A DNA stretch of 64,000 bases, from positions 1-64,000 of IMG/VR virus record IMGVR_UViG_3300032516_000011; one strand, given 5' to 3'. Origin of the DNA: a virus. The notes beneath the pieces were generated by a model. That model did not search any database. It had not been told where the DNA came from and saw nothing but the letters and a program-made list of their open reading frames with translations. Positions 5,496 to 27,341 of this stretch are shown here, in pieces (positions within the stretch are counted from its first letter, which is position 1; the number at the start of each line of letters is the position of its first letter). Made by a program: the position numbers and the translations under genes.

Positions 5496-7295
5496 CTACT
5501 TACTCCAACAGGTACTAATCTTACCCTCTACTTCTACAGGTACATTAAACATATATTCCTTAGCTGCTCCAAGCATATCGTTTGTTATGATTTTATAGAC
5601 TTCGTCCGCGATGTCTTTATGTGTTCGTACGATGATTTCATCATGCACAGTCCCAACAATGGCAGCGTCTTTATTTGTAATATGCTCTCTAATTCTAATT
5701 AATGCCCGTTTTGTGATAGTAGCATTTCCAGCCTGCATAGGAAAATTCATACACATATTTCTAACGCGTGCGTGTTCTTTTGGATTATCTAGATCGAACC
5801 CATCTAACCAACGTAAACGATTATCGTATGGGCAACGCACACTTCCAGCAGTCATGCTTTTATCTACATGCATATCGAAAAATCTTTTGATATTGGGGAA
5901 ATTTTTCCAAAAATTCGCTACCAAAATTCGAGCTTTGTCATAGGTTAATCCTGTTTCACGTGCTAATTTCTTCGGGCCCATTCCATATCCAATTCCGAAA
6001 TTTAATGATTTGGCTGACTGTCGAAGAGAATAGTTTTCTCCGGGGTCGTCAGGTCCGTTAGTGCCAGGCTTTCTTATAGGCACCCCATATAAAATAGATC
6101 CGTTGATAGCGTGAAGATCACCCTTATCCTCAAACACTTTAATCCATTTTGGTTCTTGGGATAGGTCTGCTAAAATACGAAGTTCCATGCCTGAGTAATC
6201 CACCGTTATTAATCGATAGTTGGGATCTCCGGAAGTAAATGATTCTCTATAAACTTTTTCTCTTGGTAAGTTTTGCATGTTGGGATTAGCGCTAGAGAAG
6301 CGGCCAGTATCTGTATACATCTGACTAAAATCTGAATGGATACGGCCAGTAACAGGATTTACACAATCTAAGAATGCTGCGCCATAGGTACTTATACGCT
6401 TTTCTTTTTCTCTATAAGCTAATAAAGCTTTAATAGCAGGGTGGTCTATTTCTTTCAACGCAGCCTCTGCAGTGGACATCAAACTCGCCGCGGGTTTACC
6501 AACAACGGCTTTAAGTGCGGGTAATAATTGTTTAGGACTGTTATAATTAAGATTACAAACGCCAAACATGTCTACCCCATATATAGGAGTGAAAAATTTA
6601 TTTAATTCTTCCATAGATACCGCACGTGCTGCTTTTGCTTCTTCTTCAGCTTTAAGCCACATAGTTTTATCTACGTACATCCCAGCTAGTTCCATATCTC
6701 CCACTGCTGGAATAACGTCCATCTCAACTGCGGAAACTTTTTCAAGTCCGTGTTTACGTATATATTTTAATTGTTCTTCTCGTAATTGGTGTAAATAGGC
6801 AACATCCATAGCAGAATAATAGAGCTGTTCTTCGCTAAAGGAATCTCCATAAGACATTTTTATAAATGTCTTTCGTATCTCTTTATTCATAACTATGCCA
6901 AGATACTTATCCGCCACATCATCCAAACCAAAGCCTTGAAGTTTACGTCCTTTTAATAAAAGCATTTCTGCGATCATAGTATCGAATAGTGGTTCAACAG
7001 TGATACCAAAGGATTTTTTAAAAAACTTGTAATCAAATTTAGCATTATGAAGTATCTTCGTAATGCTCTGATTAGATAGGATATCTAGGAGAGGTACTAA
7101 ATGAGTATCTAAACGTGCTACATCAAAAACAAATTGATGCTCTGCATTACCGGCACTTATTAATAGAATTTTATTTGTTATGGGATCTGTACCGGTTGTT
7201 TCAGTATCTACGGCTATAGATTTAAAAGAGACAAGTATTTGTAAAGCTTTATTATATTCGTCTCCGGGTGCATCAATGAACTTCCATGTCGACAT
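5496..7295 (-). CDS. polA: Family A DNA polymerase with 3'-5' exonuclease domain
   Basis: This 599-residue replicative polymerase has an N-terminal proofreading exonuclease domain: Exo I around D30/E32 (AVDTETTG), Exo II LHNAKFDYKFF and Exo III YSAMDVAYL all keep their acidic residues. The polymerase motifs follow: A (ITVDYSGMELRIL), B (RQSAKSLNFGIGYG) and C (TVHDEI). No 5'-3' exonuclease domain is present, as usual for phage enzymes. The ATG at 7295 has no clear Shine-Dalgarno sequence, and a hairpin lies just upstream. It probably copies the phage genome together with the ligase, helicase and RNase H encoded upstream in the same direction. Confidence 0.95.
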   Translation of the reverse strand: MSTWKFIDAPGDEYNKALQILVSFKSIAVDTETTGTDPITNKILLISAGNAEHQFVFDVARLDTHLVPLLDILSNQSITKILHNAKFDYKFFKKSFGITVEPLFDTMIAEMLLLKGRKLQGFGLDDVADKYLGIVMNKEIRKTFIKMSYGDSFSEEQLYYSAMDVAYLHQLREEQLKYIRKHGLEKVSAVEMDVIPAVGDMELAGMYVDKTMWLKAEEEAKAARAVSMEELNKFFTPIYGVDMFGVCNLNYNSPKQLLPALKAVVGKPAASLMSTAEAALKEIDHPAIKALLAYREKEKRISTYGAAFLDCVNPVTGRIHSDFSQMYTDTGRFSSANPNMQNLPREKVYRESFTSGDPNYRLITVDYSGMELRILADLSQEPKWIKVFEDKGDLHAINGSILYGVPIRKPGTNGPDDPGENYSLRQSAKSLNFGIGYGMGPKKLARETGLTYDKARILVANFWKNFPNIKRFFDMHVDKSMTAGSVRCPYDNRLRWLDGFDLDNPKEHARVRNMCMNFPMQAGNATITKRALIRIREHITNKDAAIVGTVHDEIIVRTHKDIADEVYKIITNDMLGAAKEYMFNVPVEVEGKISTCWSK

Positions 7296-7337: not shown

Positions 7338-8105
7338 TTAATCCTTGATATTATCTAATCGTTTACGACGATCCAATCTTCTCAAAGTTTTCAAGGCGCG
7401 CATCTTTATTTGACGTACACGCTCTCGAGTTAGGTCGAGCTTTTCTCCAACCTCTTCCAAGGTGTATGACCGCTCGTGGTCTATTCCATATAACATTTTT
7501 AGTATGATTACTTCACGTTTTTCTAAATGATTTAACACCATTCCCAATTCTTGTTTAAATGCTTCTTGTAAAAGCAAATGGTCGGGAGCGGGGGTCTCTG
7601 AATTAACTAAAGTATCTATTAATAATAAGGATCGCTCACCATCTCCAGATGTTGGGGTGTGGTAGCTGATACTATATTGGTTATAGACTTCGTCAGAATT
7701 TAATTTCATTTCGTGAAAAATCTCTTGTTCCGAAGGTTCTCTCTGCAATGATTGAGATAATCCGGCCTTTGTTTTTTTAACTTGTTCTAAAATATTCACG
7801 CGATTGGCAGGTAAACGAATATGTCTATTGTGTTCGCCAAGACTCTGTAATATGGATTGTTTGATCCACCAACTGGCATAAGTTAAAAATTTGGTGCCAA
7901 GTTTTGGATCGAAACGTTCCATAGCCTTCAATAATCCTATAAACCCTTCTTGCATTAAATCGTCTAAGGGCATTCCCTGTTTTTGATATTGTCGGGCTAT
8001 CCCAGCAACAAATCGTGTATTTATTTTTATTAAAATGGTTTTGGCAGCCTCACTCCCAGCATGGGCTCTGACTGCCAATTCCGTTTGATCAATTGGTATA
8101 TCCAT
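7338..8105 (-). CDS. Sigma-70-family RNA polymerase sigma factor
   Basis: This 255-residue sigma factor has a full region 2 at about residues 28-90 (IARQYQKQGMPLDDLMQEGFIG, then FDPKLGTKFLTYASWWIKQSI), a region 3 at about 100-165, and a region 4 helix-turn-helix at about 215-245 (LEEVGEKLDLTRERVRQIK). Region 1.2 is absent and region 1 is very short. The sequence is close to primary (RpoD-like) sigma factors rather than to T4 gp55-type late factors. It would redirect host RNA polymerase to phage promoters. The promoters seen in this window have housekeeping-type boxes, which would suit it. It lies six bases downstream of the transglycosylase gene. Confidence 0.92.
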   Translation of the reverse strand: MDIPIDQTELAVRAHAGSEAAKTILIKINTRFVAGIARQYQKQGMPLDDLMQEGFIGLLKAMERFDPKLGTKFLTYASWWIKQSILQSLGEHNRHIRLPANRVNILEQVKKTKAGLSQSLQREPSEQEIFHEMKLNSDEVYNQYSISYHTPTSGDGERSLLLIDTLVNSETPAPDHLLLQEAFKQELGMVLNHLEKREVIILKMLYGIDHERSYTLEEVGEKLDLTRERVRQIKMRALKTLRRLDRRKRLDNIKD

Positions 8106-9473: not shown

Positions 9474-9502
9474 ATTGTACTAAATTCCCCTATCAATATC
9501 AA
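9474..9502 (-). promoter_or_regulatory. Sigma-70-type promoter (TTGATA-17-TACAAT)
   Basis: On the - strand the -35 box TTGATA (9502-9497) is separated by exactly 17 bases from a -10 box TACAAT (9479-9474). It drives leftward transcription of the lysis, sigma and polymerase genes. It shares its form with seven other promoters in this window. Confidence 0.75.
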
Positions 9503-10746
9503 TCTTCGGAGATACATTCTTGGGGAGTTTTATCCTCTCTAATTCTTTGTATAATGCCAAACTCAAGTTTTCCGGTTTCATCGTGTATAGATTGATATTC
9601 TATCTCTACCACAAAGGGAACTTTACGTCTGTTAGATTTCAGTTCTTCGGTAAGTGCTTTAAGCTGATCATGAGAAAGTGTGCCTGGTCCGACATAACCA
9701 CGATCAATAATTTCTCCTTTAACTCCATATTCAACCAAATGAAATTTTGAGTAGAATTGCGAGTGCTTTCCGCTCTTTCCTTTAAGTACCTCGTTTACAA
9801 CGAAATCACCGGTTTCGACAAATTTATATTTGTATGATCCCTGTCTATGTGCCTTACCATCCAGTGAGTAAGAGATTTGCGACTTGTTGGGATCTCGGAG
9901 AACGAAACCTTCCCAGCCAGTTTGCTTCGCTGTTGTAACAAGCATTGCTTCTGGACCTTCCCATGTAATCATCTCTACGAGATTTTTTAAACGTAACTTC
10001 TTAAGTATGGTATAACGTTCCATGTAAGTCTTACCCCCAACAAATTTATTGTTATGGAAAAGAATGTCAAATGGAATACACTTGAATGTACCTTCCTTAG
10101 AAAGCTCTTTGTATCTCTTTATAGCTTCTATTGGATCCTCGTTACGAATTACTTGAGCAACAAATCTTGGAACCTCTTTGTTAAGTTTGTTATGGTGGTA
10201 CACAACCTCGGATAGAACGAAGTCGCCGGCATCACAAAGTTCCAGCTGTTGGTTGATGAATGGCAGTGTAGCGCAGCTCTCTGTAAGGTTCTCCATTCTT
10301 CGAGAGTACACCATCTCGAGCCCGCCAGCCTTAACAAGGAACACACAATGGCCATTATGTTTTCTTTGAGCGATTGTGGACAAGGATTTAAAGACAGATG
10401 GTGGACATTTAGATATTGGCTTACAGGGGCAAAACGACTCGGGAATTTGGTCGAGTAAGATATGCGCGGACCATTTATTTTTATTATTGGCCGCAGGTTT
10501 TTCATCGGGAGGTGTATCGGCATATCCCTCTTTCTTTTTTAATGTGATCTTAGCCTGCATCTCTGCTTTAGCCTGTTCGGCACCAGTCAATGCATTTGCC
10601 TTTCCTATGTTCATAGGGGTACAAACCTTTGTGGTCTCTTGCATTTTACCGCCAAGTATCCCCCAGCGAGTGATTAGCAAAGAACCATCGGCCTTGATTT
10701 CTAAGAACTTGGTTTTGCCAGTTCGGGCTTTTTGATAGAGTTTCAT
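9499..10746 (-). CDS. ATP-dependent DNA ligase with N-terminal WGR domain
   Basis: This 415-residue protein has a WGR-type module at about residues 1-76 (the W28-G29 of TRWGILGGK, ending KKKEGY). A nucleotidyltransferase core follows. Motif I is KHNG at 129-132, where K129 would carry AMP; most ligases have K-x-D-G, so N131 is unusual. Motif III-like DFVLSEVVY, motif IV EGFVLRDP and motif V SYKYKF are present. An OB-fold-like C-terminal section ends the protein. It would seal nicks in DNA during replication and repair. The start of the gene lies five bases after the E1-like gene, so it ends the ubiquitin-like cassette transcript. WGR domains bind DNA ends in PARP proteins and may help nick recognition here. 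Confidence 0.85.
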   Translation of the reverse strand: MKLYQKARTGKTKFLEIKADGSLLITRWGILGGKMQETTKVCTPMNIGKANALTGAEQAKAEMQAKITLKKKEGYADTPPDEKPAANNKNKWSAHILLDQIPESFCPCKPISKCPPSVFKSLSTIAQRKHNGHCVFLVKAGGLEMVYSRRMENLTESCATLPFINQQLELCDAGDFVLSEVVYHHNKLNKEVPRFVAQVIRNEDPIEAIKRYKELSKEGTFKCIPFDILFHNNKFVGGKTYMERYTILKKLRLKNLVEMITWEGPEAMLVTTAKQTGWEGFVLRDPNKSQISYSLDGKAHRQGSYKYKFVETGDFVVNEVLKGKSGKHSQFYSKFHLVEYGVKGEIIDRGYVGPGTLSHDQLKALTEELKSNRRKVPFVVEIEYQSIHDETGKLEFGIIQRIREDKTPQECISED

Positions 10747-10751
10747 AATGC

Positions 10752-11354
10752 CTAAAACATATGATTGAATACTGGTGGATTATCTTCTTCTCGAATAAAA
10801 TTTAGGAAGTACTGAGCCAAAATAATGGCAGCAATTTGATTTCCTAATTGTATTATACCGGCGGACAGTTCATAGTCTCGTTGACAAGATGCACCCTTTG
10901 AACTTTTATCCGGAAGTGTTTTTAGCAGCTCTTCAAGAGTATTTTTTTTATTTTTGGTATAAATAACGATTCCTTGACCCTCCGCACGCACATCAACCCA
11001 ATATTTTTCAACATGTTTATGTACGTGTCGAAACATCATATCACGAAAGTCTCTGTTATCTACACAACAAATTATAACATCAAACGGTTCCATATCCTTT
11101 GGATCTTTCACGTAACGAGACTTGGCTTGAAAATCATATCTATCAGCCATAACTTTCGCCTTGTTCTCCAGGATATCCTTGGTTTCGTAATCCTGATAAA
11201 GCGTATTTTTCTTCTCCACATCATCTCCATCAAATACGGTAAAGGTTATTCCCTCTGGTATTTGATTTTTTTGTATTAGACGGTGTATGTGCCGTAGAAA
11301 CCAGGACCCGTTTCCACCGGCACCGACAACCATTACTTTCAAATTACTTTTCAA
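10752..11354 (-). CDS. E1-like (ThiF/MoeB family) activating enzyme
   Basis: This 200-residue protein has an N-terminal nucleotide-binding loop (VVGAGGNGS at 10-17), the acidic ATP/substrate motif FDGDDVEKKN (41-50) followed by the conserved Q54, and CVDNRDFR (97-104). A Cys in GASCQRDYE (C157) sits where ThiF proteins of plasmid PRTRC cassettes have a conserved Cys. E1-like enzymes adenylate the C-terminal glycine of a ubiquitin-like protein. The start is TTG at 11354, overlapping the JAB stop (TTGA) with GGAG eight bases upstream. It is co-transcribed with a JAMM protease and a ubiquitin-like protein. Sulphur-transfer use, as in thiamine synthesis, is less likely because no pathway genes are near. 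Confidence 0.85.
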   Translation of the reverse strand: MKSNLKVMVVGAGGNGSWFLRHIHRLIQKNQIPEGITFTVFDGDDVEKKNTLYQDYETKDILENKAKVMADRYDFQAKSRYVKDPKDMEPFDVIICCVDNRDFRDMMFRHVHKHVEKYWVDVRAEGQGIVIYTKNKKNTLEELLKTLPDKSSKGASCQRDYELSAGIIQLGNQIAAIILAQYFLNFIREEDNPPVFNHMF

Positions 11355-11782
11355 GGCAATAACTCCGTTTTAATAAATTCGTTTCCATTCCAGTAATAAC
11401 AATGAAATTGTTCATAATGGATACTATAAATAATGTATATTCCATGATATAATCTGCCATCAACGGCTCCATACCAATCAGCTATAGATGGATATGGACG
11501 ATCAAAATAATGAGAGTGTATAATACCAATGAACTGGGTTGTATGTTCAGCACTGAATAAATCAGTATCTAATATCGCATCAAGAAACTCTACGGGAGCC
11601 ATCATAAATCCCGCAGCTTTATCTGGAGCTATATTTTTCGTAAGTCTAACTTCTTCTACAGTACCGGTTAAGTTACTTGAACATCCTACCAATACTGCAC
11701 ATACCTCATCCCCTCCGGTATCTACTGCTATACGCTTAAATTTATCACGCAATGTATTAGGAAAGGTCAGTATTTGAATCAT
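11351..11782 (-). CDS. JAB/MPN (JAMM) metalloprotease
   Basis: This 143-residue protein carries a full JAMM zinc site: E26 (GGDEVCAVLVG), H89 and H91 in IIHSHYF, P97, S99 and D102 in RPYPSIADW. JAMM proteases remove ubiquitin-like proteins from targets or trim their C-termini. The gene overlaps the upstream ubiquitin-like gene by 26 bases and the E1-like gene by four. Tail-assembly JAB proteins of lambda-type phages (gpK) exist, but they sit among tail genes. This one is in a replication block beside an E1, so a ubiquitin-like role is more likely. Confidence 0.87.
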   Translation of the reverse strand: MIQILTFPNTLRDKFKRIAVDTGGDEVCAVLVGCSSNLTGTVEEVRLTKNIAPDKAAGFMMAPVEFLDAILDTDLFSAEHTTQFIGIIHSHYFDRPYPSIADWYGAVDGRLYHGIYIIYSIHYEQFHCYYWNGNEFIKTELLP

Positions 11783-12005
11783 CCGAACCCCCGATAATTA
11801 CGTTTGTTATTGTGATGATGGAGGCAGCTTTCAAATTATCTACAGTAACATTTTCGATATTGGAAAGAACCTTATCAAGATAAAACCAACCACCCTTTTG
11901 TTGGATATACATTTTGATAGTATCTAATGCCTCTACTGCTGGCTTCTCGTGTACTGAAAAGCCAGATGCGTCGAGGATCTTAAATTTTATTAATGTGTCG
12001 TTCAT
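11757..12005 (-). CDS. Ubiquitin-like protein with internal Gly-Gly
   Basis: This 82-residue protein is the size of ubiquitin. It opens with a beta strand (LIKFKILDASG), continues with a helix around AVEALDTIKMYIQQ, then further strands, and ends with a strand IITITNVIIGG in which G72-G73 is followed by a nine-residue acidic tail (SDDSNTDLS). Strand-helix-strand order and a C-terminal Gly-Gly are what a beta-grasp ubiquitin-like protein needs, and the neighbouring JAMM protease could remove the tail to expose Gly73. The start ATG overlaps the upstream stop (ATGA). It resembles in size and place the ubiquitin-like protein C of PRTRC plasmid cassettes. The fold is inferred; no direct family match is recognised. 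Confidence 0.65.
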   Translation of the reverse strand: MNDTLIKFKILDASGFSVHEKPAVEALDTIKMYIQQKGGWFYLDKVLSNIENVTVDNLKAASIITITNVIIGGSDDSNTDLS

Positions 12006-13954
12006 AATGTACTAATCTCCTTAGCAAGCTTTGAATCGTTTGACAGTGCAAAGAATCTGTTGACGAGACGAGCTGTATTCGTATGTTCGTTCTGTCCTTT
12101 ATCAACCATACAGATATATCTTCCACTAGGATATTCATATACTAATAGGCCTTTGGTTTCGACTATATAATTTCTTAACCCGCCCTTAATAAGATATCCA
12201 TTCAATAACTTACCGTTTTGAGCTTTAAAATCAGGTATCTCTTCAATACCAAACATTGTCATGGTACTTTTGAGAAGGTCCTCTTCTTTTTGTCGTTGAT
12301 CAATCAGAGCTTGTCGACCAGTAGTCATCAATTGTTTAATATCGTCGCCAGACATTCCTCCTGTTTCTTCGTCTAAGAGAAGATCAATAACACGTGACAT
12401 TCCACGTGCATTAAGAATAGTTAAAAGTTTATTGGTGTTGCCGATTTTAAAACGCTTATCATTAAACACAATAAAGTTTTTATTTTTGGTTCGTGTCATG
12501 CTTATTTTGAACTCCATCTGCATATCAAAAATTTCATCGTGTACTTTTACCAAAATTCCACCATGTAAATATTTATGATATTTCAATGAACAAGAAGACA
12601 CCGTATCGCAAAATATATTAAAGGCATCAGTATCGGGAAAACAAATAGCACGTCCTAGAACTTCTCGTACCTCATCTTTATTAATACGATAATTATTAAC
12701 TTTATACACATGTGTTATTACACCATCTTTGGCTTTTCGGGCTGTGTGGTCAAGATGGAATCGGACATCGCCAATTTTACCAACTACAGGTGTAACTGAT
12801 TTTGTCGCCGCTGTGTATAAGGATTGCATCCAGATATCTAGTACACGATCAAAATTAAGATGGTCTTCTGAATACTGCCCAGAAAATTTTGTAAGTATAT
12901 CCTTCATTTCAACACCATTACAGGATATAACCTGATTCTCATATTCAAACTCATGCTTTCGAAATGTCACATCGTTATACGAGAATTCTCCACCTGTAGA
13001 CAGGTCACCAATTTTATCCTTGATCTTCTTTTCAAGCTGTTTTACAGCGGCCTGTTCATCGGCCATATCTTGTTGCTTACGCATCCATCTTTTAACTAAA
13101 GTATCGAGCGTAGCATTATCGATAGCAAGTACGGGTTGTCCTCGACGATAGTTATCTATGACGTTCTTATCTTTTGGCAGTATAGGGTTGTTATCAGTAT
13201 AAAATATATGCGGCGTATCCGTAAGCGTATCTATATGTGAGAAGTATCTATTTTCATCTGTCCAATTGTATGCTGGATCCCCTACTTTCACAATATAAAA
13301 ATAGAGGCCCATTTCAAATCCAGAGTTAGCTGCATAACCATGTTGTTGTCGTTTCGATGTATAGATAGCAATACGTGTATCATCGGGTAATTGTAGAACA
13401 CCTAGTATATGGTGTATATATGCGGGGACCTCCGAGTAATCTTTTTTCTTTACATTTAAATCGGGAGCTATTTTCTCCACACATTTATATAGCATAGATA
13501 CTGTAGCGTCAGTAAACGGATGATAGTAATCAGGCTTATAACTCGGCAGTTCTTTTGTAAGGAGTTGTTGCTTAATTTCTTCCATACTATTAAAAACTAA
13601 GTTACCATCATGTCGTTGTGGAATAAATCGTGCGGCAGTTTCGAGGAACGGTAGATCCTGGACCTGAGGTAAAAATTTTAGATATATATTCTCCATTTTT
13701 ACTGCTGGATATTTTATGGTGTCTAAGATACCATCATGTCGAGTTAGATTTAGATAGGATTCAGTTTCATGCCTATTTAAATTTAGACATAAATCATATC
13801 CAGAAGTGGCAGCCCTATAAATATATGAGAAACTAGTTAATTTTTTATAGGCATCAAACACTGTTTCAAGATGTTTTACATCTATGTCCGTAAGGCCTAA
13901 TCCGTAGATATCACTATAGATTAAAAGGCGTTCAAGTTTAAGAGCTCTGTACAT
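12002..13954 (-). CDS. Large unidentified protein of the ubiquitin-like cassette
   Basis: This 650-residue protein lies directly upstream of the ubiquitin-like gene and overlaps it by four bases, so the two are translationally coupled. It has no signal peptide or membrane segment. A charged helical stretch at about residues 290-335 may form a coiled coil (QQDMADEQAAVKQLEKK). Cysteines are sparse: isolated ones near the start and middle, and a cluster in AICFPDTDAFNIFCDTVSSC. I do not recognise the family. In a conjugation cassette an E2-like or target-recognition protein would be expected, and this is the only candidate, but no E2 signature is visible. Confidence 0.6.
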   Translation of the reverse strand: MYRALKLERLLIYSDIYGLGLTDIDVKHLETVFDAYKKLTSFSYIYRAATSGYDLCLNLNRHETESYLNLTRHDGILDTIKYPAVKMENIYLKFLPQVQDLPFLETAARFIPQRHDGNLVFNSMEEIKQQLLTKELPSYKPDYYHPFTDATVSMLYKCVEKIAPDLNVKKKDYSEVPAYIHHILGVLQLPDDTRIAIYTSKRQQHGYAANSGFEMGLYFYIVKVGDPAYNWTDENRYFSHIDTLTDTPHIFYTDNNPILPKDKNVIDNYRRGQPVLAIDNATLDTLVKRWMRKQQDMADEQAAVKQLEKKIKDKIGDLSTGGEFSYNDVTFRKHEFEYENQVISCNGVEMKDILTKFSGQYSEDHLNFDRVLDIWMQSLYTAATKSVTPVVGKIGDVRFHLDHTARKAKDGVITHVYKVNNYRINKDEVREVLGRAICFPDTDAFNIFCDTVSSCSLKYHKYLHGGILVKVHDEIFDMQMEFKISMTRTKNKNFIVFNDKRFKIGNTNKLLTILNARGMSRVIDLLLDEETGGMSGDDIKQLMTTGRQALIDQRQKEEDLLKSTMTMFGIEEIPDFKAQNGKLLNGYLIKGGLRNYIVETKGLLVYEYPSGRYICMVDKGQNEHTNTARLVNRFFALSNDSKLAKEISTL

Positions 13955-15934: not shown

Positions 15935-16309
15935 TTATGGTGTACCATTGTCATAAGCAACAATAGCCATAAAACCATTTGGTTTAGGCTCTAAGGTTAC
16001 TTCTTTACCTATCATATCAGAAACATTTTCTGCTTTCAGATATTGTAGAAATTTTGCTAGAAGACTAGTAGCTAATAGTTGTTCTCCCGTAGAATCAAAA
16101 TTCAACCATAAGCCTTTAACAGTTAAACTTCCAGTATGGTCTTTTACCCAAACCTCATTCACTTTGTATTCGGCGCCATCATCTGATTGCGTGTATACAT
16201 AAAAACGTTTGTTCGGATTACCGATGACAGAAGGCTTAACGTCGATGTTTATGATCTTAACTTTTTTCTTATTGCTACCGATCTTTAAATTAAATAACTC
16301 GTTGTTCAT
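15935..16309 (-). CDS. Unidentified protein, possible OB-fold
   Basis: This 124-residue protein consists of alternating strands with Lys and aromatic residues (KKVKIINIDVKPSVIG, RFYVYTQSDDGAEYKV, SLTVKGLWLNF) then a helix and a last pair of strands (KEVTLEPKPNGFMAIVAYD). The pattern suggests a nucleic-acid-binding OB-fold, but no signature confirms it. It is in an ATGA overlap with the upstream WGR-like gene and part of the RNR/dUTPase transcript. Confidence 0.6.
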   Translation of the reverse strand: MNNELFNLKIGSNKKKVKIINIDVKPSVIGNPNKRFYVYTQSDDGAEYKVNEVWVKDHTGSLTVKGLWLNFDSTGEQLLATSLLAKFLQYLKAENVSDMIGKEVTLEPKPNGFMAIVAYDNGTP

Positions 16310-16569: not shown

Positions 16570-18693
16570 CTAATTACTTAGTATTGGAAGTTCACATTGT
16601 CCCCCAGCACATACCAACTCTTGTTGAAGTGACGTATGATCTTCTTCTTCAATAAGTTGCGTATAATCAACTGGGCGAAAATCCTTTATAAGTCTATTCC
16701 ATAATTCTTCATCTTGTGGAGTAGTAATAGCCTCTAGAGGTGCTTGTTTGAAATCTTTATCACCGCTTCTCGACAAGAAGGAAACGGCCGAAAAGAAATT
16801 TCTATTAGCGTAAAGGTACTCACTAATTTCTTTCCATTCGCCCGCATCCACAATGACCGTACAAGATACATTATGCGAGACGTCTTTTTTATTGTTGTCA
16901 CTGGTGCCATTCAATACCCAATTTGTTTGCGTACTTTTAATAATATCAAGATGCATAAGTGCAGGTAAGTCCGCTTTAACCATAGCTGTCGCAGAGACTT
17001 CCACAGGAAAGGTTATTACATCATCGGTATGATTAGCACTCCAAACACTTTCTTCACACATATGCGGGTTAGTTTTTTTAAAATGCTTATAAACAGGGTC
17101 CATTTTATTTACTTGAACCCTTCTAAAATAACGTTTCGCATGGTGTGGGTGAATACCTGAAGCTGCTTTTAAAACCAGGCTCGATGTCCCTTCGGGCTTA
17201 ATACAAGTTGTACGTGCTGCTTGATTGGTACCTAAAATTTTAGCCCAACGTTTATTTGTTTCAACAACATGTTTGGCAGCCTTTTGTTGGAATTCAGGAT
17301 TTAAAAGAATTTCTGGACTATCCATCATACCTGTTATGGATACTCCTAGCAACGCTTCTTCCTCCGTTAACCATTTAGATGAATTTGAAAGGTATGGAAA
17401 ATGCGTATATGCAGCTTGTATCGTACCTATTATGGTCGCAGCGGTAGCGGCTCGATAAAAATCCTCTGCACTTCCAATTTGTGCACCATTAATAGACGTA
17501 AGATTACAAAACTGAACCCCCGTAACTCCATCGGCAGCGACGGGTATGAAACCAATTTCAAAACACGGGTTATAAAGAGTGTCAGGATTATTAGCAAATA
17601 CAAACCCGGGCTCACCAAACTGTTTAGTTCTATCGAATATGGTGACGAATGTTTTAAAATCAATCTGATTACGCAAGAGCAGGACGCTATTATTACTCCG
17701 CGCGCGATGGGGATACACAGCATACCAACTAATGGTCTTTTCATTTTTTAATTTTTCATATTCCCATTCTTCTATTTCAACTTTAATATACTCCTGCTTT
17801 GGATATGCTGGATCCTCTATTATTACAAACCCCTCATATTTACCTGTTTCTTTATCCTGTTCAAATTGTTTTTTCTTTTTAACTGGTAGCATGATTTTTG
17901 CATTAAGCATATCTTGATCATCAAAATCAAATATTATCGATGTAGCAGAACGCCGAATGCCCCCAGACAACACAGCATCAGCGCAATGCATAATCACATC
18001 ATATACATTGATCGGATGAAATTGTGCTTGGTGACCCTCTTCTATAATGTTATCAAGCAAAGCTTTTATCTTTGCATGGGCATTTTTAAGGCCTTTGTAA
18101 CCAGGTGCTTTTCCACCGCCTATTTTAAGTGGTGACCCTTTTTTCCTGATTTTCGAATAGTCAAAAACAATCTTTCTACCAGTGTACGGAGTGTTTCGGA
18201 AATAACAACTAAGAAGCGCTTCGACAGAATCCGCCCATCCTTCGATCGTATCTTCTACTGTATACGCAAGAACAATTCCCGTCTTATCATTTGCATCAAC
18301 AAGGTTTGGAAGTCGTCTAAGGTATTTTTTTGATAGACCAATGCCTACTCCGTTTCCGCATAATAGCATGTAAAAAATTTCTGAAAATGAACGAAGAGAA
18401 TCTACATGTTTAACTGAACAATTATACACACGCGCTTCGTGTGCTTCAATGGCTTTCCCTCCGAATTGAAGAGATCTCATTGAAGGCACTATTTTACGTT
18501 GTCGAATAAAATCAAAGGCCTCGGATAATTCTTTTTTTTCTGATTCTTTAAGCCAAGCAAACCTTTTTAAATGCATAGACTCAAGTCGGGAAACGGCTTC
18601 TAACCAAGTCTCCCGACGCTTATGTCTTTCATCATAACGAGCATATTTACTTGTAAAAATAAACTGCGATAGCTCTTCTTTGAAATCAATCAC
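16570..18693 (-). CDS. nrdJ: Adenosylcobalamin-dependent (class II) ribonucleotide reductase
   Basis: This 707-residue protein matches the monomeric class II ribonucleoside-triphosphate reductase type. Visible are PSMRSLQFGG and VYNCSVKHVDS (active-site Cys of the CSV motif), GNGVGIGLSK, GGIRRSATSI, NPCFEIGF, FCNLTSING and PEGTSSLVLKAASGIHPHHAKRYFRRV. The C-terminus ends with a CAGGQCELP redox pair. Length is close to the family norm of about 700-740. It makes dNTPs from NTPs and needs vitamin B12 from the host, but no oxygen and no second subunit. Its stop is nine bases from the WGR-like gene and its start overlaps the dUTPase gene by four bases. Confidence 0.93.
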   Translation of the reverse strand: MIDFKEELSQFIFTSKYARYDERHKRRETWLEAVSRLESMHLKRFAWLKESEKKELSEAFDFIRQRKIVPSMRSLQFGGKAIEAHEARVYNCSVKHVDSLRSFSEIFYMLLCGNGVGIGLSKKYLRRLPNLVDANDKTGIVLAYTVEDTIEGWADSVEALLSCYFRNTPYTGRKIVFDYSKIRKKGSPLKIGGGKAPGYKGLKNAHAKIKALLDNIIEEGHQAQFHPINVYDVIMHCADAVLSGGIRRSATSIIFDFDDQDMLNAKIMLPVKKKKQFEQDKETGKYEGFVIIEDPAYPKQEYIKVEIEEWEYEKLKNEKTISWYAVYPHRARSNNSVLLLRNQIDFKTFVTIFDRTKQFGEPGFVFANNPDTLYNPCFEIGFIPVAADGVTGVQFCNLTSINGAQIGSAEDFYRAATAATIIGTIQAAYTHFPYLSNSSKWLTEEEALLGVSITGMMDSPEILLNPEFQQKAAKHVVETNKRWAKILGTNQAARTTCIKPEGTSSLVLKAASGIHPHHAKRYFRRVQVNKMDPVYKHFKKTNPHMCEESVWSANHTDDVITFPVEVSATAMVKADLPALMHLDIIKSTQTNWVLNGTSDNNKKDVSHNVSCTVIVDAGEWKEISEYLYANRNFFSAVSFLSRSGDKDFKQAPLEAITTPQDEELWNRLIKDFRPVDYTQLIEEEDHTSLQQELVCAGGQCELPILSN

Positions 18694-25781: not shown

Positions 25782-26278
25782 ATTTGGATCTTTGGTGCGG
25801 TATATACCGCTAATAGAGGGTGTTTGTTAAGTAGATATTGCCCAAGTGTGTCCAAGGGTATCTCGATGGCTATATCTGGTGCTATACCGCTTGGTTGGGG
25901 TGAAGGAGTTTGTCCTTCTATTCTATACTCAACCCAAGTAACCTTGCCTTTTTGTATGTGTTCTTTTATTTGCTGTTGTTTTTTACTCAGGCTTGATTGT
26001 CCAGACTTGACTTCTAAAAATACAACCTCATCGTCTGTAAACACTACATAATCTATTGGCATTCCGATGAAATGGGCCTGTTTTGGATTATATGGAAAGT
26101 TCGCTAGGAACGGTGCCATTTGTTCGGCTATTTGTCCCGTTCGCACTTCCGAGGATTTTTTCTGCCCCAGAATTTTTATATTCTGGTCTTCGAGTTGTTG
26201 GATTTTGTTCGCTTGACGACGGGCTAGAAACGCTTGAACTATCAGTACTGCGAACAAAAGTAATATCAGGAATACCAT
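25778..26278 (-). CDS. Membrane-anchored Holliday-junction-resolvase-like endonuclease
   Basis: This 166-residue protein has an N-terminal membrane segment (residues 1-18), a short coiled-coil region, then a PD-(D/E)XK nuclease core: GQIAEQMAPFL, FIGMPIDYVVF (D76), FLEVKSGQSSLSKKQ (E89, K91), and GKVTWVEYR. This matches the Endonuc_Holl family. It could cut branched DNA or host DNA. Its N-terminal coding part overlaps the end of the CCA-adding-like gene by 191 bases in a different frame. Confidence 0.82.
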   Translation of the reverse strand: MVFLILLLFAVLIVQAFLARRQANKIQQLEDQNIKILGQKKSSEVRTGQIAEQMAPFLANFPYNPKQAHFIGMPIDYVVFTDDEVVFLEVKSGQSSLSKKQQQIKEHIQKGKVTWVEYRIEGQTPSPQPSGIAPDIAIEIPLDTLGQYLLNKHPLLAVYTAPKIQI

Positions 26279-27341
26279 TACTTAGAGCCCTTTCAATTTT
26301 TTTCTTTAGTAGTTTAATTTTTCGCATGGAGATTTTTTGTGGTGTTCCACTACGATCGGCTTCTCGTATACGAAGTAAATCAAAAATATATTCTTTGCCT
26401 ACTTTACGTATGAGACGTCTAACCGATTTGTCGGTCATTCTAGGATCCGCATCAAACATGTGGTGTAAGATTAGATGGGATACCTTGTGAACTGTTTCCT
26501 TTGAAAAGTTCCAATATTTAAGATATGTTTTGGCGATCTTCGCTCCGTATATCTCGTGCTTAAAAAAGTGTATATCTCCGTTTGCATTACATTGTAGCGT
26601 TTGAGGCTTAGCAATGTCATGAAAAAGTATAGTCAATCGAAGATCCATTTCCGTAGGGCACGCATCTAACGCATACATAATATGGTCAAACACATTATTT
26701 ACACCAGAACGTTTGCTCTGTATAACCGTTTTACACGCAGCTAATTCTGGAAGAATATACTCGAGAAGTCTTGTTTCTTGAAGATGTTTAAATACTGGAC
26801 TGGGAGATGGAAGTGATAGGATTTGTTCTATTTCATGCCGTATAAGATCTGGCCCCATATGCTTTATAATTTGGGCTGTATCATATATATTGAACCAGGT
26901 TTCAACATTCAAATTAAAACCTAATTCACCGGCCAATCGGCACGCTTCAATCATTTTTATAGGGTTCCCTAAAAAGAGTTTATTAGGGGCTGTAATTATT
27001 TTATTTTTAATATCTACAACCCCATGAAATGGATCATAATAGGTATCAGTTAAAGGATTCAAATATATATTGTTAATCGTGAAATCGATAGGTTCGTTGA
27101 GTTCCTGGATATTAGTTATTAATCGTATTAGCAGGCTCTCAGTTTCTATCTCTGTGGAACTAGAATGTTTAATAGGTATTTCAAGTTTCTCAATTATATG
27201 AACCAGTTGTTGTTCTGATAATCTATTAATGACTATATGTTCTTTTTGATAAGGAATCCCCAAGAAGTGATTACGCAACGAAGGGCCTGTTCGAAATGTA
27301 ACGCCTCCTGCTGCAGCAACCTCTAAATATAATTGTTTCAT
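26088..27341 (-). CDS. CCA-adding/poly(A)-polymerase homologue with HD domain, catalytic site lost
   Basis: This 417-residue protein aligns to class II tRNA nucleotidyltransferases. The GG of the N-terminal motif remains (AAGGVTFR), but the VRD and D-x-D catalytic carboxylates are replaced (KEHIVIN). The RRDFTINA-like segment survives as PIDFTINN, followed by YYDPFHGVVDI. The HD phosphohydrolase domain looks intact: FDHIMYA, LFHDIAKP, FFKHEIYG and LILHHM. It could thus be a phosphodiesterase or RNA-end enzyme rather than a polymerase. The last 64 residues are low-complexity Ser/Asn/Thr and overlap the nuclease gene, suggesting loss of an earlier stop. Confidence 0.75.
   Translation of the reverse strand: MKQLYLEVAAAGGVTFRTGPSLRNHFLGIPYQKEHIVINRLSEQQLVHIIEKLEIPIKHSSSTEIETESLLIRLITNIQELNEPIDFTINNIYLNPLTDTYYDPFHGVVDIKNKIITAPNKLFLGNPIKMIEACRLAGELGFNLNVETWFNIYDTAQIIKHMGPDLIRHEIEQILSLPSPSPVFKHLQETRLLEYILPELAACKTVIQSKRSGVNNVFDHIMYALDACPTEMDLRLTILFHDIAKPQTLQCNANGDIHFFKHEIYGAKIAKTYLKYWNFSKETVHKVSHLILHHMFDADPRMTDKSVRRLIRKVGKEYIFDLLRIREADRSGTPQKISMRKIKLLKKKIERALSNGIPDITFVRSTDSSSVSSPSSSEQNPTTRRPEYKNSGAEKILGSANGTNSRTNGTVPSELSI

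Follow-up and report, generated by a model that had tools for sequence, protein, structure and literature searches.

The genome of an uncultured virus carries four overlapping genes that appear to form a core, vertically inherited cassette for modification by a ubiquitin-like protein (Ubl). Judging from sequence comparisons, we put at roughly 55% the probability that the cassette performs SAMP-like reversible tagging without an E2 enzyme, with a large partner protein, here called BIG, as transfer factor or target.

The cassette and its genome setting

The window, that is, the whole 64,000-nucleotide stretch of DNA analysed here, comes from a 103.7-kb uncultured virus record that encodes a tail sheath, class II ribonucleotide reductase (RNR), dUTPase, DNA ligase, sigma factor and family A polymerase. 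Inspection of the open reading frames of the window identified four co-oriented genes on the minus strand, running from 13954 to 10752: BIG (650 aa; 12002-13954), the Ubl (82 aa; 11757-12005), a JAMM/JAB metalloprotease (143 aa; 11351-11782) and an E1-like adenylating enzyme (200 aa, TTG start; 10752-11354). Consecutive genes overlap by 4 bp (BIG/Ubl), 26 bp (Ubl/JAMM) and 4 bp (JAMM/E1). An earlier note on this DNA had described a cassette of three overlapping genes, Ubl, JAMM and E1, at 10752-12005. All these reading frames were confirmed, but the upstream 650-aa BIG gene had been missed as a member.

The neighbours of the cassette, also on the minus strand, are its syntenic neighbours in related viruses. 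Upstream lie the class II RNR (16570-18693) and a conserved 124-aa protein without a Pfam family (15935-16309). Downstream are an ATP-dependent DNA ligase (9499-10746), which occupies this place in the window and in close relatives, a sigma-70-type factor (7338-8105) and a family A DNA polymerase (PolA; 5496-7295). Elsewhere in the window (26088-27341) there is a phage poly(A) polymerase or CCA-adding-type nucleotidyltransferase with an HD domain.

The ubiquitin-like protein

The AF2 model of the 82-residue protein is a beta-grasp (bb-a-bb-(a)-b, pLDDT 83.5) with a tail disordered from about residue 70. Its best PDB neighbours were SUMO, NEDD8, ISG15 and other ubiquitin-like proteins (probability up to 0.99, TM about 0.48, E about 0.01); a beta-grasp is the predicted fold that the earlier note had suggested looking for. 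Profile searches gave no sequence-family match: the PRTRC-C-like profile did not match the Ubl, and the NCBIfam PRTRC families matched none of 23 Ubls. A Prok_Ub search of the genome gave no match either and is uninformative, since its control also gave no signal. In all homologues the Ubl is a single domain of 66-88 aa, and no tandem-domain, ISG15-like protein was found among them. Two Ubls weakly matched PinA (PF10465, best E = 5e-4); this identity was rejected as a probable chance match, none of ten phage Ubls showing it on rescanning.

The predicted activation site is Gly72-Gly73 (codons GGG GGT, 11787-11792), followed by the nine-residue tail SDDSNTDLS (11760-11786), as the earlier note had read it. 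Gly-Gly stands at or near the C-terminus in all 24 distinct homologues and forms the exact end in 14 of them; extensions, where present, are Q, Y, AY, SC, NL, NAN or nine residues. Among 1,104 other ORFs of 60-100 aa from the same loci, one (0.09%) ended in Gly-Gly, and 2.7% had Gly-Gly in the last 12 residues. Loss of Gly-Gly with the gene order kept, a pattern which the earlier note had named as contrary to its interpretation, was not seen in any of the 24 distinct Ubls.

Since the tail of the window Ubl falls almost wholly within the 26-bp overlap, most of it is JAMM coding DNA read in another frame, and the tail may be a by-product of gene overlap that JAMM must remove. The two glycine codons are located just 5′ of the JAMM ATG (11782-11792) and may double as the JAMM ribosome-binding site.

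The JAMM protease and the E1-like enzyme

The protease matched Prok-JAB (3.7e-8), scoring above the curated cut-off. Its top profile was that of the haloarchaeal desampylase (1.1e-12), and the family profile matched P. furiosus JAMM1 (3.8e-12). The active-site residues E26, H89, H91, S99 and D102 (HxH-x7-S-x2-D), which include the four zinc ligands listed in the earlier note, are invariant in 16 of 16 homologues. The same note had JAMM trimming the Ubl to expose Gly-Gly for E1. The intact catalytic residues support such a step where a tail exists, but most relatives already end at Gly-Gly. JAMM retains its full active site beside the 14 distinct Ubls that stop there, so precursor maturation cannot be its sole job. 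This suggests that JAMM is a deconjugase, the removal of the Ubl from something being the more likely common job. Both activities are known from Caldiarchaeum subterraneum, where the JAMM protease CsRpn11 takes off the nine residues that follow Gly-Gly and acts as a deconjugase as well (PMC6043591).

The E1-like enzyme matched ThiF (7.6e-14) and, as its best profile, PRTRC_ThiF (TIGR03736, 1.5e-19), and its family profile matched ThiF-type, NEDD8 E1, MccB and Cap2 chains. PRTRC_ThiF matched all 23 E1s of the family, and the SAMP E1 profile NF047750 matched 13 of the 23. Alignment revealed the GxGGxGS nucleotide loop, Asp, Asn, Lys, Asp and the catalytic Cys; the loop, Asp, Asn, Lys and Cys157 (codon 10884-10886) are invariant in 23 of 23 homologues. 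Cys157 aligns with Cys184 of E. coli ThiF and Cys187 of MoeB, in agreement with the loop and conserved-position cysteine reported previously for this DNA. The enzyme is minimal: it lacks paired zinc CxxC motifs and the Cys and UFD domains. The Arg of the canonical N-L-x-R-Q motif, present in ThiF, MoeB and PRTRC-type E1s, is replaced by Tyr in all 23 E1s (Tyr53 in the window), so the activity of these enzymes may differ.

The partner protein BIG

BIG has three invariant cysteines, Cys438, Cys455 and Cys615 (Cys615 codon, 12110-12112), of which only Cys615 is shared with the archaeal-virus relatives described below. The model of the protein is moderately confident (pTM 0.51). Sequence and fold searches gave no match to a known enzyme, and the NCBIfam PRTRC families matched neither BIG nor its upstream neighbour. 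Viewed by eye alone, the C-terminus (G(R/K)YICIVDK...NRIYALHND) resembles that of an E2 (ICLDIL...LLSI..LL.D), a likeness that we treat as speculative. PDB profile searches with the whole protein and with its C-terminal 120 aa returned no E2-like match. Nor did a whole-chain fold search, in which weak, partial SSB/OB-like matches appeared (probability up to 0.57). A Prok-E2_B search of the 103.7-kb record found no match, the control also remaining silent.

Reversible tagging or sulfur transfer

Reversible tagging, the reading that we favour, would proceed as follows. Where a tail is present, JAMM would trim the Ubl to Gly73. E1 would adenylate Gly73, then capture the Ubl on Cys157. The activated Ubl would be joined, with no canonical E2, to lysines of replication or transcription proteins of the virus or the host, and BIG, possibly via Cys615, would act as transfer factor or main target. 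JAMM would take the tag off again, making the modification reversible. We tentatively advance a more specific proposal: BIG may be an E2/E3-like transfer protein of a new type, forming a thioester on Cys615, or a dedicated target. It would belong to an undescribed core viral Ubl system, common to diverse phages and the probable archaeal viruses, whose reversible tagging would control the viral replication or transcription machinery.

The main rival explanation is a sulfur carrier, for which an identical gene set would serve. E1 would adenylate the Ubl, host sulfur would turn it into a thiocarboxylate, and BIG would accept the sulfur, e.g. to thiolate a nucleotide, a tRNA or a DNA base, with JAMM trimming the tail or hydrolysing the adduct. 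These are the roles of JAMM proteases in the CysO/Mec+ and QbsE/QbsD sulfur-carrier systems. A minimal E1 of the ThiF/MoeB type would suit this scheme, as would the location of the cassette among nucleotide-metabolism genes with a constant large partner. In the archaeal-virus group the tails of the Ubls are short and differ from one another (Q, Y, AY, SC, NL), as in tailed sulfur carriers. The Ubl end is ThiS-like, and the best local alignment with ThiS joins GG to GG, at a non-significant E-value of 0.02. However, no rhodanese was found in the 103.7-kb record (the control was detected in 13 of 14 genomes), although a host donor is possible. The missing rhodanese and the desampylase-type JAMM weaken the sulfur-carrier scheme. 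An E1 devoid of the zinc CxxC pairs that ThiF and MoeB possess, and a partner protein matching no known enzyme, also speak against it, and we regard it as possible but rather unlikely.

Conservation in viral relatives

Relatives were gathered by scanning viral contigs with E1, JAMM and BIG, which yielded 28 loci with BIG. The order and strand of BIG-Ubl-JAMM-E1 are kept in all 28, though in some of them other DNA is inserted between Ubl and JAMM. On every contig that is long enough, the sequence of genes is RNR, 124-aa protein, BIG, Ubl, JAMM, E1, (ligase), sigma factor and PolA; no 124-aa protein was detected in L061 or L062. Pairwise divergence of E1 correlated with that of BIG (r=0.90), JAMM (0.90), Ubl (0.86) and PolA (0.88), all with Mantel p <0.002, and the divergence of BIG with that of PolA (r=0.91). 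Between the window and one relative (L002) dN was far below dS, the latter being saturated for two genes. Constant synteny, co-divergence and the low dN are what characterises a core module that is inherited vertically. The synteny in relatives also agrees with the earlier remark that the cassette stands beside replication genes.

This core position argues against an accessory role in counter-defence or host take-over, in which the Ubl would be put on host proteins, disabling immunity or serving as a decoy for host Ubl-based defences. Counter-defence had been raised as a possibility in the earlier note. Bacterial Ubl conjugation does act against phages, as in Bil and CBASS Cap2, and PADLOC weakly matches the window E1 to E1-E2 proteins. 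Accessory anti-defence genes are patchy, however, whereas the cassette is syntenic and co-inherited with RNR, sigma factor and PolA in every relative, and we find counter-defence improbable.

Three loci (L032, L048 and L050) have an extra 226-aa gene between Ubl and JAMM, with a weak match to the RWP-RK helix below the cut-off. It is possibly a mobile or homing element. In L049 and L059 the gap between Ubl and JAMM is of similar size and unmatched to the 226-aa gene.

Searches of cultured phages by tblastn gave no hits for BIG (window and L059 versions) or JAMM, and for E1 distant relatives only. An E1 pattern scan of one-per-species prokaryote genomes returned three distant E1s only. Within the sensitivity of the pattern scan, the cassette appears confined to uncultured viruses. 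Acinetobacter phage ME3 (L068, 235 kb) carries a gene annotated as 'PRTRC system protein A' a few kb from a ThiF-family E1.

A second group in probable archaeal viruses

Genes for TFIIB-type factors and for a TCP-1/cpn60 chaperonin at loci L011-L020 lead us to infer archaeal hosts; these loci are probably from archaeal viruses. Their cassette is dispersed over several kb. Where the stored DNA reaches, these loci encode a Gly-Gly Ubl and a JAMM-like protein with the motif HTHPFG-x4-SxxD. They also encode a protein of 390-475 aa whose C-terminal region, including one invariant cysteine, is shared with BIG. Comparison of this protein with BIG by hhalign gave E-values of 2.8e-4 over the full length and 3.5e-5 with the C-terminus alone, at low hhalign probabilities, whereas profile-profile controls between unrelated families gave E-values of about 0.4-0.5. 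In BFVD the BIG model matched three viral proteins of 416-452 aa (probability 1.00, E=6e-8), whose membership in the archaeal-virus family is deduced from size only. The E-values relative to the controls, together with the structural match, make the link between BIG and the archaeal-virus protein better than chance.

In the E1 tree the archaeal-virus clade (99/97) and the phage clade (100/99) are sisters, united with 92/88 support apart from PRTRC-type and crAss E1s. A transcription initiation factor adjoins the cassette in both groups, a sigma factor in the phages and a TFIIB-like factor in L011-L020. Predicted archaeal viruses have been reported to carry a ThiF-family gene, along with thermosomes, as one of their commonest auxiliary genes, and that gene was linked to ubiquitination; the rest of the cassette is absent from that account (PMC8276007).

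Comparison with known systems

By analogy, the cassette would work most like the SAMP/JAMM system. The gene set is of the SAMP type: a Gly-Gly beta-grasp modifier, a minimal ThiF-type E1 and a JAMM nearest to the desampylase, corresponding to SAMP, UbaA and HvJAMM1, with no E2. Conjugation of SAMP1 is reported to be reversible, with HvJAMM1 (PMC4443979). Unlike the SAMP genes, the viral genes form a single overlapping four-gene cassette in a replication module, with the large partner BIG; unlike the SAMP E1, the viral E1 has no zinc CxxC pairs, and Tyr stands in place of its motif Arg. The SAMPs, for their part, serve their host both in sulfur transfer and in conjugation.

Other systems share some features with the cassette. 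The ubiquitin of C. subterraneum is made as a precursor with nine residues past Gly-Gly that are removable by JAMM (PMC6043591), but that system has an E2, a RING E3 and an Rpn11-class JAMM. In lambda and T1 the tail proteins TAPI and TAPK are a phage Ubl and an adjoining JAB protease (PMC1779556). They belong to tail-assembly genes, with an NlpC/P60 domain and no E1, whereas the viral cassette has an E1 and is part of a replication module. The Bil operon (BilABCD), the components of which have been reviewed, likewise has four genes including Ubl, JAMM and E1, but its Ubl has two domains, its E2 a catalytic Cys and its E1 two domains (PMC11354881). The viral Ubl has one domain, the E1 is one 200-aa domain, and there is no recognisable E2. 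By its predicted architecture the cassette is not Bil.

The earlier note had placed the cassette near PRTRC and Bil sets. Its relatedness to PRTRC holds at E1, the nearest profile, and the logic of Ubl, JAB and E1 is common to both; the PRTRC-type Ubls found here lack Gly-Gly, however, and a Bil-like E2 was not recognised. Marine viral contigs L021-L029 have, in a row, a sigma-like gene, a PRTRC-C-like Ubl (ending ASSKA, without Gly-Gly), a 266-aa protein, an E1 (NLDRQ) and a 380-aa protein. A virus lineage thus has a cassette of PRTRC type, except that L026 represents a separate and more distant E1 locus. That the viral set is itself a divergent PRTRC cassette, with the PRTRC function tied to plasmid-like maintenance, is a very improbable explanation: although PRTRC_ThiF matches every E1, the window E1 scores far below the family cut-off (70.3 vs 144.75 bits), its clade is split from PRTRC-type and crAss E1s (92/88), the Ubl has no PRTRC-C match and ends in Gly-Gly unlike the PRTRC-type Ubls of L021-L028, and BIG, itself without PRTRC match, would take the place of the other PRTRC proteins and ParB. 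By the E1 cut-off and the Ubl tests we do not classify the cassette as a PRTRC member, its PRTRC kinship being confined to E1.

In three Crassvirales genomes (L070-L072: cr106_1, crAss001 gp79-gp75 and bajarodcaudo virus 1) the JAB-like gp77 GLIHSHNNMATFFSGTD adjoins the ThiF/E1 gp76 within the replication module, a likeness to the viral cassette. Unlike the latter, the crAss001 set has an E1 of a separate clade, other partner proteins and no recognised Gly-Gly Ubl. The N-terminus of crAss001 gp79 is beta-grasp-like by eye, and gp78 has 445 aa. The gp79-gp75 region of Crassvirales is a possible unlabelled PRTRC-like ubiquitin-related cassette.

Implications

In the open-access literature, to which the search was confined, no account of the full cassette turned up, and its novelty is provisional. 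A comparative survey of jumbo phages contains no Ubl, JAB or E1-like terms (PMC7824862). Single elements were already known: ThiF in predicted archaeal viruses (PMC8276007) and phage tail Ubl/JAB pairs (PMC1779556).

Bacterial Ubl conjugation is known chiefly from antiviral defence and from plasmid or metabolic cassettes. The present cassette looks like core viral equipment, its position being as well conserved as that of the polymerase, in phages and probable archaeal viruses, and Ubl systems appear to be a core rather than an accessory function in viruses of microbes. If this is true, the cassette would offer a compact system in which to ask how tagging of the ubiquitin type dispenses with an E2, with replication and transcription proteins as a fixed set of likely targets. 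It would also bear on how viruses may have moved such cassettes between domains.
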